From Acidobacteriota bacterium (GTDB taxonomy: Bacteria; Acidobacteriota; JAAYUB01): DNA of 42,083 nt. Both the position numbers and the translations under genes were made by a program. Below are positions 11,105 through 28,352 of this stretch, one piece after another; positions within the stretch are counted from its first letter, which is position 1, and the number at the start of each line of letters is the position of its first letter. The stretch lies in the NCBI GenBank assembly GCA_016935015.1, contig JAFGRT010000060.1, positions 1-42,083 of the forward strand, read 5' to 3'. A model generated the notes under the pieces. It was not told where the DNA came from. It made no database searches and saw only the letters and a program-made list of their open reading frames with translations.

Positions 11105-11238
11105 CCGGCCGAATCCCCCACCTTGCGGAAACCATCCGACCCACCGGGACGTATACACTGCCCAGGGATGCGTCTTTTTTCACATCAAGGGCTCACCCGG
11201 CCGGCACGGCCGCGCCGTTCCGCCTGAAAGGAAGTAGG

Positions 11239-11829
11239 ATGAAACCGAACCGTCTTCTCCCCCTCCTGCTGATGCTGGTGGCCGGCCTGTTGCCGGCCTG
11301 CGGCCAGAGCCGGGACGAGTGGCAGCAGCCCGAGCGCATCATGGACGTGGCCGGCTTCCGCCCGGGCATGTACATCGGCGAAATCGGCGCCGGCGAGGGC
11401 TATTTCACCTTCAAGCTGGCCGAACGCGTCGGCCCCGCAGGGAAGGTCTACGCCAACGAGATCCAGTCCCACCTGTTGCAGACCGTCCGCGACCGGGCCC
11501 GGCAAGAGAACATCACCAACATCGTCACCGTGCTGGGCGCCGAAACCGAGCCCCAGTTCCCGGCGATGACCCTGGACGGTCTCATCATGGTCTACGTCTT
11601 TCACCACCTGTCCCGCCCGGTGGAGTACCTGCACAATCTCCGCTCCTATTTTGGCGAGGACACGCGACTGGTGATCGTGGAGCGGGATCCGGTGCGCTAC
11701 CGGGATTACATGTCCGACCATTTCATGAAAAAGGAACGGGTGTTCGATCTCCTCAAGCAGGCCGACTACCGCCTGATCCGGCTGGAGGAATTCCCCCGCG
11801 ACAACATATTCATCGTGGTACCCGACTAA
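11239..11829 (+). CDS. Lipoprotein-anchored class I SAM-dependent methyltransferase homologue
   Basis: A 196-residue protein combining a type II signal peptide (MKPNRLLPLL...GLLPA, lipid-modified Cys21) with a compact Rossmann methyltransferase fold. Motif I is EIGAGEGYFTFKLAE (about 48-62), followed by KVYANEIQ (acidic end of strand 2) and LDGLIMVYVFHHL (strand 4). The arrangement RPGMxIGEIGAGEGYF...GPAGKVYANE matches a known group of 'predicted methyltransferases' with export signals (COG4798-like). AAGGAAG at 11228-11234 sets the start. Because SAM is cytoplasmic, an exported member is biochemically puzzling; it may have lost catalysis or act before export. It converges on the pseudo-ProRS gene, with 99 bp between stops. 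Confidence 0.83.
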   Translation: MKPNRLLPLLLMLVAGLLPACGQSRDEWQQPERIMDVAGFRPGMYIGEIGAGEGYFTFKLAERVGPAGKVYANEIQSHLLQTVRDRARQENITNIVTVLGAETEPQFPAMTLDGLIMVYVFHHLSRPVEYLHNLRSYFGEDTRLVIVERDPVRYRDYMSDHFMKKERVFDLLKQADYRLIRLEEFPRDNIFIVVPD

Positions 11830-11928
11830 ACGCCAGAACAGGCGGCCATCCATAGGAGCGGTGACCATCTCTTTTCCAAATGGGGATTTTCAGAGGATTA
11901 TTCGTCCACTCATGATCCGCCGTGGCTC

Positions 11929-13635
11929 TCAACCCTGCAGCAGGAAGCGGCGGATGCGGGCCAGGGCCGGCTCCAGGCCCAGCAGCGTCTTCTCCGTCTG
12001 GTGCCGGAAACGCAGCTCCACCTGACCCGCCTGGTGGGTGCGGCGGCTGAGGGTCAGCAGCACGGGCATGCCCAGCAGTTCGGCGTCCCGGAATTTATCG
12101 CCGGCGCGGGTGTCGCGGTCGTCGAACAGTACCACCAGCCCCTCCTCCTGCAGGCGGCCATACAGATGTTCCGCCGCCCGGTGGACATCCTGATCGTCCA
12201 GGTTCAGGCCCATAAGGTGCACCTGGAACGGCGCCACGCCCACGGGCCAGACGATGCCCGCCGGGTCATGATGCTTTTCCACCACCGCCGCCAGCAGTCC
12301 CGTAAAATCCAGGGTCAACGCCGCCAGCCACGCGGGCCGCTGCCGACCTTCATCGCTGACGAAACAGCATCCTGTCGCCTGCGGCAAGCCCGTTCCCCAC
12401 GGGACCACTTCTCCCAGCACTCCCACCGGCTCGGGCGCCAGCCGGCCCGTTTCGCAACGGGCGCAGAGATGCCCGGCCGTGGCCTGGCGGAAATCACCAA
12501 ATTCCGGTTGCGGTAAATCCCGGTCGAAATTGACGTTGATGTAGTGATGATCCGTCCGGTTGGCACCGCATTCGAAATTGACCCGCTCCCGGGTGGCCTC
12601 ATCGGCCAGCAGACACACTTCGTCCGGCAAGCCAATGGGCCCGGCATAACCCACCTCGGCCCCCGTCAGCTGCCGCACCCGCTCGGGCGGCGCCAGCACC
12701 AGCCGCCGGCAACCCAGCCGCCGCCGCACCTTGGCCTCGCTCACGTCGCAGTCGCCGCGCACCATGACCGCCACCGGCTCGCCGTCGGCTTCGAAGAGGA
12801 GCATCTTGGTGGTCTTCCAGTGCGGAATGTTCAGAAACTCGGCCAGGGGTTTCGTCTGGATCAGCCCCGGCCCGTGCACCGTTTCACACGTCCGCGGCTC
12901 TTCCTCACGCCCATGGGTAATGATGCGGGATACGGCCACGGACGTCATGGCGGCATAGCCGCAGGCGGCGCAGTACAACACTTCTTCCGGACCGTCCTCC
13001 TGGGGGGTGACCAGCCGCCGGGCCGGCGGGCCTTCGGCGCCGGGACGGCCGGCATCCACCCAGCGTCCGTCCAGGCCGGCCCGCCGACAAACCCGCTCCA
13101 GCACCCGGGTGAGGAGCCGCATCGTGTTGGCCGTGTCGGCCTCGTTGGCATCCAGGGCCCAGGCATGGAGGACGGAAATCTCCCGGGCGCTGACCAAGCC
13201 CAGCACAGAGCGATAGTCATCCTGATACGCCGGCACGATCTGAAAGATCCGCCGCGGCAACTGCTTGTATGAATTGATTTCGCGGGCCAGCAAGTGCAGC
13301 ACCAGCCCGTCCTGGGGACCGGCCAGGGTCAGACGGGCACCGCGCCGATCCATGATCTCAAAGGCGGATCGCTCACCCAGCCACGTTGGGGATGCGGAAT
13401 CCGCGGCGAACTGGAGGCGCGGCAGGCGCCACTCCTCGGCTCCCAGCTGGGTCAACTCGGCGCGCAGGATGGCGGTCAGACGGTCCAGCGCCTGGATCTG
13501 CAGCGGCAGGGCGGCGAAAAGGCCCGGCGCCGATTCGCGGATATATCCGGCCTGGATGAGCAGGCGGTGGGCGGCGGTGAGGGCCTGGCGGGGCCCCTGC
13601 CGGGCCGGCCGGACCAGCAGTTGCGACATCTTCAT
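11929..13635 (-). CDS. Prolyl-tRNA synthetase homologue with eroded catalytic motifs and intact editing domain
   Basis: Full-length (568 residues; E. coli ProRS is 572) bacterial-type ProRS homologue. The N-terminal fold aligns throughout (AHRLLIQAGYIRESAPGLFA; EINSYKQLP), but catalytic signatures are degraded: GPTHEE is GPQDGL (106-111), the motif 2 FRDE is YQDD (137-140), SHEF is PARR, and motif 3 GIGxxR has Gly446 in place of Arg. In contrast the YbaK-type INS editing domain (about 230-400) keeps IQTKPLAEFLNIP, Lys277, VMVRGD and GANRTDHHYINVN with tandem His363-364. Two CxxC pairs (222/225, 391/394) remain, and the anticodon-binding domain is good (FDDRDTRAGDKFRDAELLGM). The start is set by GGAGGAA 7 nt upstream. 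It is probably not an aminoacylating enzyme; a trans-editing or tRNA-binding role is inferred. A normal proS must exist elsewhere if this is inactive. Confidence 0.85.
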   Translation of the reverse strand: MKMSQLLVRPARQGPRQALTAAHRLLIQAGYIRESAPGLFAALPLQIQALDRLTAILRAELTQLGAEEWRLPRLQFAADSASPTWLGERSAFEIMDRRGARLTLAGPQDGLVLHLLAREINSYKQLPRRIFQIVPAYQDDYRSVLGLVSAREISVLHAWALDANEADTANTMRLLTRVLERVCRRAGLDGRWVDAGRPGAEGPPARRLVTPQEDGPEEVLYCAACGYAAMTSVAVSRIITHGREEEPRTCETVHGPGLIQTKPLAEFLNIPHWKTTKMLLFEADGEPVAVMVRGDCDVSEAKVRRRLGCRRLVLAPPERVRQLTGAEVGYAGPIGLPDEVCLLADEATRERVNFECGANRTDHHYINVNFDRDLPQPEFGDFRQATAGHLCARCETGRLAPEPVGVLGEVVPWGTGLPQATGCCFVSDEGRQRPAWLAALTLDFTGLLAAVVEKHHDPAGIVWPVGVAPFQVHLMGLNLDDQDVHRAAEHLYGRLQEEGLVVLFDDRDTRAGDKFRDAELLGMPVLLTLSRRTHQAGQVELRFRHQTEKTLLGLEPALARIRRFLLQG

Positions 13636-13719
13636 GATGAACTTCCTCCCTCCCTTTCTCCCCAGGCCCGGTCCGTCCATCGACCGGGTGTCCGTCCAGC
13701 TGTTCGGTGATATAGGGAT

Positions 13720-13748: not shown

Positions 13749-13904
13749 CCACACAGCGACAGGGCGGTAATACTGGCATTTTACCGGATCCGCCGGGTGT
13801 AAATCGGCGAGATAAATGATGAATCAATCGGGGTGGGGTTTTGCCATTCGGAAACTCAGCCGGATTTCCCTTCCAGCCCGGATTTTAAATGTACGATCGG
13901 TTTT

Positions 13905-14190
13905 GGGGTCGGACCAAGACAATATTCTCAAAATTAACAGGTTAACACCGAAACAAAGGTCAAAACTGGCCTTAAAAGCCTGTTTTGGGGCCTGAAAATG
14001 CGCGGTTAACGTCCCCTGTATACACGGGGCCAGTTTGCATCCGCTCCCCTCGCGAGACCGGCGGATGGAACAGACAAAAACCGAGCCCACCCTATGAAAA
14101 TACCCCCAAAAAGTGGCGTTTAAGGCCAAAAACAGGCCAAATTTTGCATTTATATTGTTTTATTGCAACATGTTGTCCTGGTCCGACCCC
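13905..14190. mobile_element. MITE-like element with 18-bp terminal inverted repeats
   Basis: The left end GGGGTCGGACCAAGACAA (13905-13922) and the right end TTGTCCTGGTCCGACCCC (14173-14190) are inverted repeats matching at 17 of 18 positions, enclosing about 250 bp without a coding frame. The right 95 bp (14096-14190) recur as a direct repeat at 14428-14524. Ends of the form GGGGTCxGACC are, from memory, frequent next to REP-associated Y1 transposases; a relic of such an enzyme lies in this window at 41198-41380. The non-autonomous mobile-element interpretation is inference; the repeats themselves are visible. Confidence 0.65.
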
Positions 14191-14427: not shown

Positions 14428-14524
14428 GAAAAATCCCCCCCAAAAAGGGGCGTTTAAGGCCAAAAACAGGCCAAATTTTGCACTTATATTCTTTTATTGC
14501 AACATGTTGTCTTGGTCTGACCCC
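14428..14524 (+). repeat. Second copy of the MITE-like right end
   Basis: About 97 bp nearly identical to 14096-14190. Shared core segments include GGCGTTTAAGGCC, AAAAACAGGCCAAATTTTGC and TTTTATTGCAACATGTTGTC, ending in TTGTCTTGGTCTGACCCC. Differences are scattered point changes plus length changes in the C-run, as expected of an older duplicate. Confidence 0.8.
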
Positions 14525-26261: not shown

Positions 26262-28352
26262 CTACTTCGTCTCGCCCTTGACCCACTGATCCAGCCAGCC
26301 GAGCACGGTCTCATGCCAGAAGATGCTGTTGTGGGGTTTCAACACCCAGTGGTTCTCGTCGGGGAAATAGACCAGCTTGCTGGGGATGCCGCGGCGCTGC
26401 AGCAGGTTGAACGTGGAGAGTCCCTGGGTGTCCACCACCCGGTAGTCCAGGGCGCCGTGGATGACCAGCATGGGCGTCTGCCACTTGTCCACGTACTCCA
26501 CCGGATTGTGCTTGCGATAACCCTCGGGATTGGTCCACGGCGTGCCCATGTGGTCGCGTTCGGGGAACCAGAGCTCCTCGGTGTCGTAGTAGGCCATCCG
26601 CTCGTCCAGGTTGCCGTCGTGGCAGATCAGGGCCTTGAAGCGGTCGGGCCAGTTGCCGGCGATCCAGTTGATCATGTAGCCGCCGTACGAGGCGCCGAGC
26701 GCCCCCACCTTTTCGCCGTCGATCCACGGATACCTGGCCAGGGCCGCCGCCAACCCCTTCTGCAGGTCTTCCAGCGGTTTGCCGCCCCAGTCGCCCTGGA
26801 TGGAATCGGTGAACGCCTGGCCGTAGCCGCTGGAGCCATGGAAATCCACCATCACGGCCGCATACCCGGCACCCGTATAGGCCTGGGGATTCCAGCGGTA
26901 ATGGAAATGATTGCCGAAGGATCCCTGGGGGCCGCCGTGGATGAGGAAGGCCACGGGGTATGTCTTGGCCGGATCGAAATCCACCGGCTTGACGATGTAG
27001 CAGTAAACCGTCTCGTCGTTCCAGCCCTTGAAGGTGAACTGTTCCGGTTCACCCCAGCGAATAGCCGCCACTTTCTCGTCATTGATGGCGGTGATCTTCC
27101 GGATGTCGCTGCCATCGGGTTTCACCGCGTACAGCTCCACCGGTGACGTGAGGTGATCCATGGCGAAGACGATCCGGTCGGCCAGGGCTGTCGGGGAACC
27201 GATGTTCCCGTCCTTGACCACGGTCCTCACCTTGCCGGTGGTCGTGTCGATGGCGAAAAGCGATTGCTGGCCGAGATGGCTGGCCGTGGCGTAGATGGTC
27301 TTGCCGTCGGGGGCCCAGGTGATGGACGACGGCGAGCGATCCCAGTCCTCGGTGAGGATCCGTTCGTCCCCGTCGGGCCAGGCGCGCAGCACGATGCGGT
27401 AACGATCCGCTTCATAAACAGGCGTTTTCATGGCCAGATACGCCAGGGTTTTGCCGTCGGGTGAAAAGACCGGCGCGGTGTCCCATGCGGCGTTCTCGGC
27501 CTGGGGATCCCACAGGTTGGCGGTGGTCAGCTTCTCCGGCGCCCGGGAGGCGTCCACCGGTGCATGGAACAGGTCCCAGTCGGTGGACCAGGCCTCTTCG
27601 CGGCCCACATCCTTAGCGGTGAACACGATACCGGCGCCGTCGGGTGTGAAGGTGAATTCCTCGGTACCGCCGAAGGGCTTGGAGGGACTGTCGGCGTCCA
27701 TGTCGGGCATGACATCCACCGGATCACCGGCCGGTTTGCCTTGATCCAGGGCATGGACGAAAATATGGTAGCGGCGGCCGTCCATCCAGGCGTCCCAGTG
27801 CCGCACGAACAGGCGGTCATAGACCCGGGCCGAGATCTTGTCGTTTTCCCGGGCTTGCAGCTTGTCCACCGTCTCCTGGATGGTGGCCCCGGGAAACACT
27901 TCCAGGGTGTAGGCGATATGTTTGCCGGTGGGCGACACGATCAGGTTGGCCACATCCAGCGGCAGGTCCGTCATCTGCTGCGCCTCGCCGCCGTCGGCGG
28001 GAATACGCCACACCTGGGAAGAGCCCGAGCGGGACGTCAGGAACCAGATGGCTTTCCCGCAGGGAGACCAGACGGGATTGGAGTCGCCGGCCGGATGGGT
28101 GGTCAGCCGCCGTAGGCCGCTGCCGTCGGCGTTCACCAGCCAGAGATCGGTCCGGCCGCGGTCGGCTTCCAGATCGGTGGTGCGCAGCACGAACACGATC
28201 CGGCTGCCGTCGGGCGAGACCTGGGGATTGCCGATGCGGTCCATGGCCATCATGTCGTGCACCGAAAAGGGATGGGTGTCACTCATGGGCATATCTCCAT
28301 ATCCGAGAAATGCAAAAACGAACAGACACAAGGCGTACAAACTCGATCGCAT
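26262..28352 (-). CDS. Exported S9-family prolyl oligopeptidase / acylaminoacyl-peptidase-like
   Basis: A 696-residue peptidase with a signal peptide (MRSSLYALCLFVFAFLGYG) and GAGGAGGT just before the ATG. The N-terminal two-thirds is a WD40/beta-propeller (repeats such as NPQVSPDGSRIVFVLR, NPVWSPCGKAIWFLTS, APVFSPDGKTLAYLAM, SSITWAPDGKTIYATA) that gates substrate size. The C-terminal hydrolase domain has the triad Ser555 in GASYGGYM, Asp636 in HGALDYRV and His668 in DENHWVLK, plus LIHGGPQGSFG for the oxyanion hole. It is the last gene of a run of four minus-strand genes starting near 30.8 kb and ends in a strong terminator. It probably releases dipeptides or acylated residues from peptides in the periplasm. 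Confidence 0.94.
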   Translation of the reverse strand: MRSSLYALCLFVFAFLGYGDMPMSDTHPFSVHDMMAMDRIGNPQVSPDGSRIVFVLRTTDLEADRGRTDLWLVNADGSGLRRLTTHPAGDSNPVWSPCGKAIWFLTSRSGSSQVWRIPADGGEAQQMTDLPLDVANLIVSPTGKHIAYTLEVFPGATIQETVDKLQARENDKISARVYDRLFVRHWDAWMDGRRYHIFVHALDQGKPAGDPVDVMPDMDADSPSKPFGGTEEFTFTPDGAGIVFTAKDVGREEAWSTDWDLFHAPVDASRAPEKLTTANLWDPQAENAAWDTAPVFSPDGKTLAYLAMKTPVYEADRYRIVLRAWPDGDERILTEDWDRSPSSITWAPDGKTIYATASHLGQQSLFAIDTTTGKVRTVVKDGNIGSPTALADRIVFAMDHLTSPVELYAVKPDGSDIRKITAINDEKVAAIRWGEPEQFTFKGWNDETVYCYIVKPVDFDPAKTYPVAFLIHGGPQGSFGNHFHYRWNPQAYTGAGYAAVMVDFHGSSGYGQAFTDSIQGDWGGKPLEDLQKGLAAALARYPWIDGEKVGALGASYGGYMINWIAGNWPDRFKALICHDGNLDERMAYYDTEELWFPERDHMGTPWTNPEGYRKHNPVEYVDKWQTPMLVIHGALDYRVVDTQGLSTFNLLQRRGIPSKLVYFPDENHWVLKPHNSIFWHETVLGWLDQWVKGETK

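Follow-up and report, generated by a model that had tools for sequence, protein, structure and literature searches.

The window, i.e., the whole 42,083-nucleotide stretch of an Acidobacteriota contig that was analysed, carries on its minus strand a gene for a pseudo-prolyl-tRNA synthetase (pseudo-ProRS; 11929..13635, P0005), with its ATG at 13635 and its stop codon at 11931-11929. The 568 aa product has the full-length architecture of a bacterial-type ProRS, uninterrupted by any stop or frameshift. Starting from another in-frame ATG, at 13680, would lengthen it by 15 aa, and a Shine-Dalgarno-like GGAGGAAG is present before 13635. All features of the protein given below lie on this minus strand.

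The N-terminal catalytic-fold part (residues 1-205, 13021..13635) has lost its catalytic residues. In the former TxE proline-binding loop (13303..13326), LAGPQDGL replaces LGPTHEEV, and in the former motif 2 (13204..13227), YQDDYRSV replaces FRDEIRPR, with loss of the Arg and the Glu. The equivalent of the acceptor-stem Arg144 is a Val, and Gly446 (12298..12300) takes the place of the motif 3 Arg in the C-terminal catalytic part (residues 391-466, 12238..12465). The stretch AREINSYKQLPRR ahead of motif 2 is invariant within the family to which the window genome belongs.

The remaining parts are well kept. The INS (YbaK-like) editing domain (residues 251-390, 12466..12885) retains Lys277 (12805..12807), the equivalent of E. 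coli Lys279 involved in editing and invariant in 30/30 aligned ProRS. According to the alignment, it also retains the GxxxP loop of the editing site as GYAGP (G329xxxP333, 12637..12651), together with the invariant His364 (12544..12546), which corresponds to the editing-pocket residue His369 of E. coli. The two CxxC pairs, Cys222 and Cys225 (12961..12972) and the one at 391/394, are present, and DDRDTRAGDKFRDAELLGMP is kept in the anticodon-binding domain (residues 467-568, 11932..12237). In Pfam searches, PF04073 (editing domain, 77 bits) and PF03129 (anticodon-binding domain, 54 bits) were both found above their cut-offs; neither the class II catalytic-core family nor a DNA-binding or other added domain was matched. 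The protein falls below both NCBIfam proline--tRNA ligase cut-offs (363 vs 558 bits and 300 vs 306.7 bits). Its AlphaFold2 model is a confident ProRS fold (pLDDT 87.5, pTM 0.83; TM 0.88-0.89 to 2J3L, the E. faecalis ProRS), in which the low-confidence segments, residues 79-88 and 141-150 (mean pLDDT 52 in the latter), correspond to the degraded active-site part.

An earlier sequence-only reading of this gene, which did not state its strand, had described a dead catalytic site beside a kept editing domain in a frame without stop or frameshift, and this was confirmed. All its residue assignments held in the numbering that starts at 13635 (LAGPQDGL, YQDD, PARR for SHEF, Gly446, Lys277, GANRTDHHYINVN, and CxxC at 222/225 and 391/394), as did its ribosome-binding site, at least as the Shine-Dalgarno-like element mentioned above. 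Its "good promoter" did not, as the promoter scan gave one match where 0.9 are expected by chance. The change of SHEF to PARR, which it had counted among the lost catalytic signatures, is real but carries little weight alone, because SHEF is not universal: intact relatives carry GSQEF or GSHEF.

Around the gene, a methyltransferase-like gene on the plus strand (11239-11829) is convergent with the pseudo-ProRS, and the minus-strand ORF lying over it (11185-11868) is probably spurious. Upstream of the pseudo-ProRS there is an 88-nt direct repeat (14103-14190 and 14437-14524, 94% identical) with shorter inverted copies (13903-13990), which ends in a GGGGTCGGACCAAGACAA-like element and resembles an interspersed repeat family. 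An Rfam scan of 10.5-15.5 kb gave no match, and no tRNA gene was found by a tRNA scan restricted to the window. Farther along the same contig, a prolyl-oligopeptidase-family (S9) peptidase is encoded on the minus strand at 26262-28352, a probably coincidental association.

A second ProRS and purifying selection

The window genome (G000) is a 4.75 Mb draft in 237 contigs, 97% complete. Contig C224 carries a canonical proS, 33% identical to the pseudo-ProRS, which displays MTHEE, FRDE, SHEF and motif 3 and scores 743 and 602 bits on the two NCBIfam models. From these motifs, we infer it to be the aminoacylating paralogue. Its INS domain retains the Lys, the GxxxP and the His. The possibility that the pseudo-ProRS is the sole ProRS of the genome is thus rejected. 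These two proteins are the only PF04073 matches in the window genome, in which no free-standing YbaK/ProXp was found; the sister genomes do have such proteins. Because of this absence, the pseudo-ProRS may also cover the YbaK/ProXp role there.

Both the pseudo-ProRS and a canonical proS are present in 4/4 genomes of the family (f1, two genera), and the pattern of losses and retentions is common to the window copy and the three sister-genus copies at 53-54% identity. Four copies at this distance sharing the same pattern place it clearly beyond chance. No comparable match was found in the other 293 sampled Acidobacteriota (904-920 bits within the family vs <=552 elsewhere). Among the three sister-genus copies, omega over the whole gene is 0.19-0.21, with an upper 95% limit of 0.29. 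By part, it is lowest in the INS domain (0.08-0.13, vs 0.22-0.27 for the catalytic part), and the INS domain also has fewer amino-acid differences in two of the three pairs (p = 0.0004 and 0.003; 0.09 in the third), although these pairs are not independent. For the window copy against its relatives, dS is about 1, so that dN/dS approaches saturation and was left out of the main claim.

The identities agree with this picture. The window copy and those of the sister genus are 76-79% identical in the INS domain and about 45% in the N-terminal catalytic part, while the canonical proS of the same genomes shows the reversed order (INS 69-71%, N-terminal catalytic part about 76%). Compared with its intact relatives, described below, the window copy is 31% identical in the N-terminal catalytic part, 65% in the INS domain, 29% in the C-terminal catalytic part and 47% in the anticodon-binding domain. 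Among themselves, these intact relatives reach about 78% (N-terminal catalytic part, 73-80% with one outlier at 57%), 72% (INS) and 57% (anticodon-binding domain), and ordinary ProRS show 53-60%, 31-44% and 38-46% for the same three parts. The pseudo-ProRS is under purifying selection and does not follow the pattern of a decaying gene. Strain-specific decay is rejected, as the form occurs in all four family genomes and in other phyla, with omega at about 0.2.

The sequence-only reading had named the lack of another proS and a recent decay confined to one strain as observations that would count against it, and neither was made. The dN/dS below 1 for which it had proposed a test was found, and the selection on a non-aminoacylating function for which it argued is well supported by the second proS, the conservation and omega.

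A lineage of related ProRS and the loss of aminoacylation

A scan of 84,980 species genomes retrieved relatives at 37-54% identity in Verrucomicrobiota, Planctomycetota, Acidobacteriota and Deltaproteobacteria. This lineage shares an unusual INS signature, VAVMVRGDC ... NFECGAN. In thirteen members, the active site is ordinary wherever the contigs cover it, and such an intact member is usually the sole ProRS found in its genome, the exceptions being G065 and G076, which have another. In the former, a Verrucomicrobia genome, an intact NFECGAN-type ProRS (L045) stands beside a second canonical ProRS (L122), possibly an early stage before the loss of catalysis.

Eight copies are dead. Four belong to the window's family, and the others are L057 (Sedimentisphaerales), L050 and L051 (both Deltaproteobacteria) and L059 (Desulfobacteraceae). 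In all eight, the THEE loop is lost and motif 2 is altered without any frameshift or stop, and the equivalents of Lys277, GxxxP and His364 are kept; the motif 3 Arg is lost in the four Acidobacteriota copies. Another ProRS is found in every genome with a dead copy (family f1, G070, G071, G077 and G079). The form is rare, being restricted to family f1 among 297 Acidobacteriota; in samples drawn evenly from two other phyla, it turned up once among 395 genomes and once among 392.

Three further copies of Desulfobacterota type (L039, L041 and L043) are only partly altered. In L041 and L043, THEE, FRDE and the motif 3 Arg are unchanged and the alterations lie elsewhere (CHDF, GCYCLG, MNDAY), and the partly altered copies score well above the NCBIfam cut-offs that the window copy fails. 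Another ProRS accompanies them in two of the three genomes (G063, and G060 with an archaeal-type partner); in the third, G061, a small assembly, only one was seen. L039 was considered as the sole ProRS of its chromosome and rejected as such when the search with the archaeal-type family found the second one. This Desulfobacterales chromosome (CP070694, G060) thus encodes the partly altered bacterial-type L039, the archaeal-type L226 and three free-standing INS-family proteins.

Whether aminoacylation was lost once or twice depends on the positions considered. In the full-length tree, all eight dead copies branch together (100/99). This grouping is suspect, since the fast-evolving catalytic columns invite long-branch attraction. 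The trees of the retained domains split the dead copies into branch A (the window's family and L057) and branch B (L050, L051 and L059 with the partly altered L039, L041 and L043), with supports for A and B of 100/93 and 99/95 using the INS domain alone and of 88/93 and 97/86 using the INS and anticodon-binding domains. Nevertheless, a single clade of dead copies was not rejected by the AU tests (p 0.27 and 0.21). At the position of E. coli Ile263, a Thr is found in the window copy, L057, L046 and L056, which agrees with a derivation of branch A from the Verrucomicrobia/Phycisphaerae side. Overall, the balance tips towards two separate losses over one, without proving them.

Hydroxyproline genes beside one branch

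In branch B, the ProRS-type gene, dead or partly altered, is located within hydroxyproline or proline-analogue catabolic islands in several Deltaproteobacterial genomes. L050 is flanked by genes for an aldehyde ferredoxin oxidoreductase, a HypD activase, HypD (1240 bits, cut-off 1100), an SDR and AcnX (of the cis-3-hydroxyproline dehydratase family, here below the cut-off of that model), and proline-racemase family and ABC transporter genes are found farther along the locus. L043 and L041 each have an ornithine-cyclodeaminase/pyrroline-2-carboxylate-reductase family gene on one side and, on the other, a gene of the proline-racemase/trans-3-hydroxyproline-dehydratase family, with AcnX genes adjoining, and the 19 kb contig of G063 also carries AcnX, a transporter, the HypD activase and HypD. 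An ornithine-cyclodeaminase family gene precedes L039, L051 is followed by a HypD activase gene, and L059 follows an oxidoreductase gene whose product is 89% identical to that of L050's neighbour. L284 and L286 belong to the context of these islands. To our knowledge, a ProRS in hydroxyproline clusters has not been described, as none was found in the open-access literature searched, which is not proof of absence.

In contrast, the gene of branch A stands alone, and the window copy is not near hydroxyproline genes. HypD, the key enzyme, is nevertheless encoded elsewhere, above the cut-off, in 5/5 branch-A genomes (on contig C40 in the window genome). As HypD above the cut-off also occurs in other Acidobacteriota (44 of 293; also given as 16% of those sampled), its presence in the window's family is only weak, suggestive evidence. 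It was found in 5 of the 11 surveyed genomes with intact copies. The linkage to hydroxyproline genes is shown for one branch only, and that the window copy shares the role of the Deltaproteobacterial copies is an inference.

The trans-editing reading and its rivals

We propose that the pseudo-ProRS is a catalytically dead, full-length ProRS kept as an anticodon-guided trans-editing deacylase of mischarged tRNA(Pro). We consider this reading likely (roughly 0.66), although both the deacylase activity and its substrate are inferred and there is no biochemical evidence. The anticodon-binding domain would capture tRNA(Pro), and the INS domain, through Lys277, the GYAGP loop and His364, would hydrolyse the wrong amino acid attached by the separate canonical ProRS, with the catalytic fold surviving mainly as a scaffold. 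Such proteins would have arisen from the VAVMVRGDC/NFECGAN INS lineage by loss of aminoacylation in genomes that leave the charging to another ProRS, an event that probably occurred two or more times. The loss of the catalytic residues, the retention of the INS and anticodon-binding domains, the purifying selection and the second ProRS are shown, and trans-editing explains them best, since the domains kept are precisely the two on which editing by ProRS relies. Indeed, editing of Ala-tRNA(Pro) by the E. coli ProRS needs the anticodon nucleotides G35/G36 and not the acceptor stem (PMC3973320, PMC11295145), which predicts that the INS and anticodon-binding domains would be retained and the synthetic site lost, in the window copy together with the Arg144 equivalent. 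It is the anticodon-binding domain that reads G35/G36. The functions given here to Arg144, Ile263, His369 and GxxxP are those of the E. coli enzyme.

Trans-editing with a built-in recognition of tRNA(Pro) had also been the suggestion of the sequence-only reading and remains unproven. Its substrate, Ala-tRNA(Pro), is the least compelling detail: the canonical ProRS of the same genome already has an INS domain with the key residues, and plain Ala editing by the pseudo-ProRS would thus be redundant. The natural substrate may instead be a proline analogue on tRNA(Pro), e.g., hydroxyproline, a possibility raised by the position of the Deltaproteobacterial-branch gene as part of hydroxyproline catabolic islands. 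Bacterial ProRS can charge hydroxyproline at a low rate (PMC7595273). On the other hand, the E. coli ProRS is reported to edit only substrates that are smaller than proline (PMC7934785), and this counts against hydroxyproline unless the specificity of the pocket has changed. The window's branch has Thr or Pro at the E. coli Ile263 position, and its pocket specificity may therefore differ. Hydroxyprolyl-tRNA(Pro) as the substrate is an attractive hypothesis that stays unproven.

The closest idea to the pseudo-ProRS is the archaeal ThrRS-ed, a synthetase paralogue without aminoacylation that keeps its editing and anticodon-binding domains beside a catalytic paralogue, ThrRS-cat (PMC7916415, PMC11295145). 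Similarly, the window genome has a separate canonical paralogue, and the editing and anticodon-binding domains are kept under purifying selection, editing in trans being inferred. The differences are that another synthetase and another editing domain are involved, that the catalytic fold is retained, and that the canonical partner has an editing domain of its own. With the INS-family trans-editors (YbaK/ProXp), which consist of one domain and generally lack a separate module for RNA binding (PMC11295145), the window copy shares a homologous editing domain with the catalytic Lys, GxxxP and pocket His and, by inference, action in trans; unlike them, it is not single-domain, its 568 aa keeping the synthetase fold and an anticodon-binding domain. 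With the bacterial-type proS with INS, it shares the fold, the domain order and both retained domains, but it lacks the aminoacylation residues, falls below the NCBIfam cut-offs and has a second canonical proS alongside.

Two other systems deserve comparison. CtdA is a deacylase of canavanyl-tRNA(Arg) whose gene lies next to those for canavanine degradation (PMC10018355), much as an editing-type protein is encoded beside analogue-degradation genes in the Deltaproteobacterial branch; however, CtdA is PheRS B3/B4-like and not ProRS-derived, and the window's own copy is outside any such cluster. The ProRSx of Streptomyces is a duplicated bacterial ProRS that still charges a special tRNA (PMC9437257), whereas the charging site of the window copy is destroyed and no odd tRNA(Pro) gene was found by the scan limited to the window. 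No description of an inactive ProRS paralogue was found in the open-access literature searched, although this does not prove its absence. What is new would be a synthetase-derived trans-editing factor, its editing inferred, with the synthetase fold intact and in the tRNA(Pro) system.

Among the alternatives, the one that survives best, although we consider it unlikely, is a regulatory or accessory pseudo-synthetase that binds tRNA(Pro) or an amino acid, signals how far charging has gone or acts as the partner of another protein (like HisZ in histidine synthesis), the INS domain being kept for binding. A sensor would also suit the position within catabolic islands, and the invariance of the stretch before motif 2 in the window's family is in its favour. 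Against it, there is no DNA-binding or other added domain, and the INS domain is the most constrained part and still has its hydrolytic Lys, its GxxxP and its His, although mere binding would not require them. The tRNA-sensing regulator that the sequence-only reading had offered as an alternative thus has no specific support but is not excluded.

Two further possibilities appear very unlikely. An altered-specificity ligase would imply that L041 and L043, in the hydroxyproline clusters, remain able to charge or activate proline or one of its analogues, and that the dead copies derive from such forms; indeed, in both, THEE, FRDE and the motif 3 Arg are in place with other residues changed. However, none of the eight dead copies retains the proline-amine loop, and motif 2 is altered in every one, so that no class II activation is expected, and it is the partly altered copies, not the window copy, that exceed the NCBIfam cut-offs. 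A decaying relic, i.e., an ancestral or acquired ProRS displaced by another and drifting away with the INS domain fading last, would fit the fast evolution of the catalytic part and the patchy spread (one family among the sampled Acidobacteriota, one genome in each of the two other phylum samples). It is contradicted by eight copies without frameshift or stop, by the low omega even in the catalytic part, by an INS domain far more conserved across genera than the N-terminal catalytic part, and by retention throughout the family. A functional ProRS despite odd motifs is all but excluded, as its confident ProRS fold is set against the lost proline-binding, ATP-binding and motif 3 residues, the scores below both cut-offs and the presence of a canonical proS.

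Returning to trans-editing, a bolder reading, which we put forward only tentatively, is that whole-synthetase trans-editors ("ProRS-ed") emerged two or more times from a single ProRS lineage and deacylate tRNA(Pro) mischarged with hydroxyproline or related proline analogues, as self-protection in hydroxyproline-feeding bacteria. If true, ProRS-ed would be a previously undescribed class and the tRNA(Pro) counterpart of CtdA. It would mean that a whole synthetase, and not just a free-standing domain, can be converted, maybe more than once, into a dedicated proofreader that keeps its own tRNA-recognition module. Two questions become testable: whether an INS domain can edit when the synthetic site beside it is inactive, and by what means bacteria living on hydroxyproline exclude it from their proteins. 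The analysis also flags a likely annotation error, since some dead copies pass the automatic proline-tRNA ligase cut-offs. L050 (6001-7743) scores 567 vs 558 bits and L051 (4377-6086) passes one of the two models, TIGR00409; both are likely to be annotated as proS in databases.
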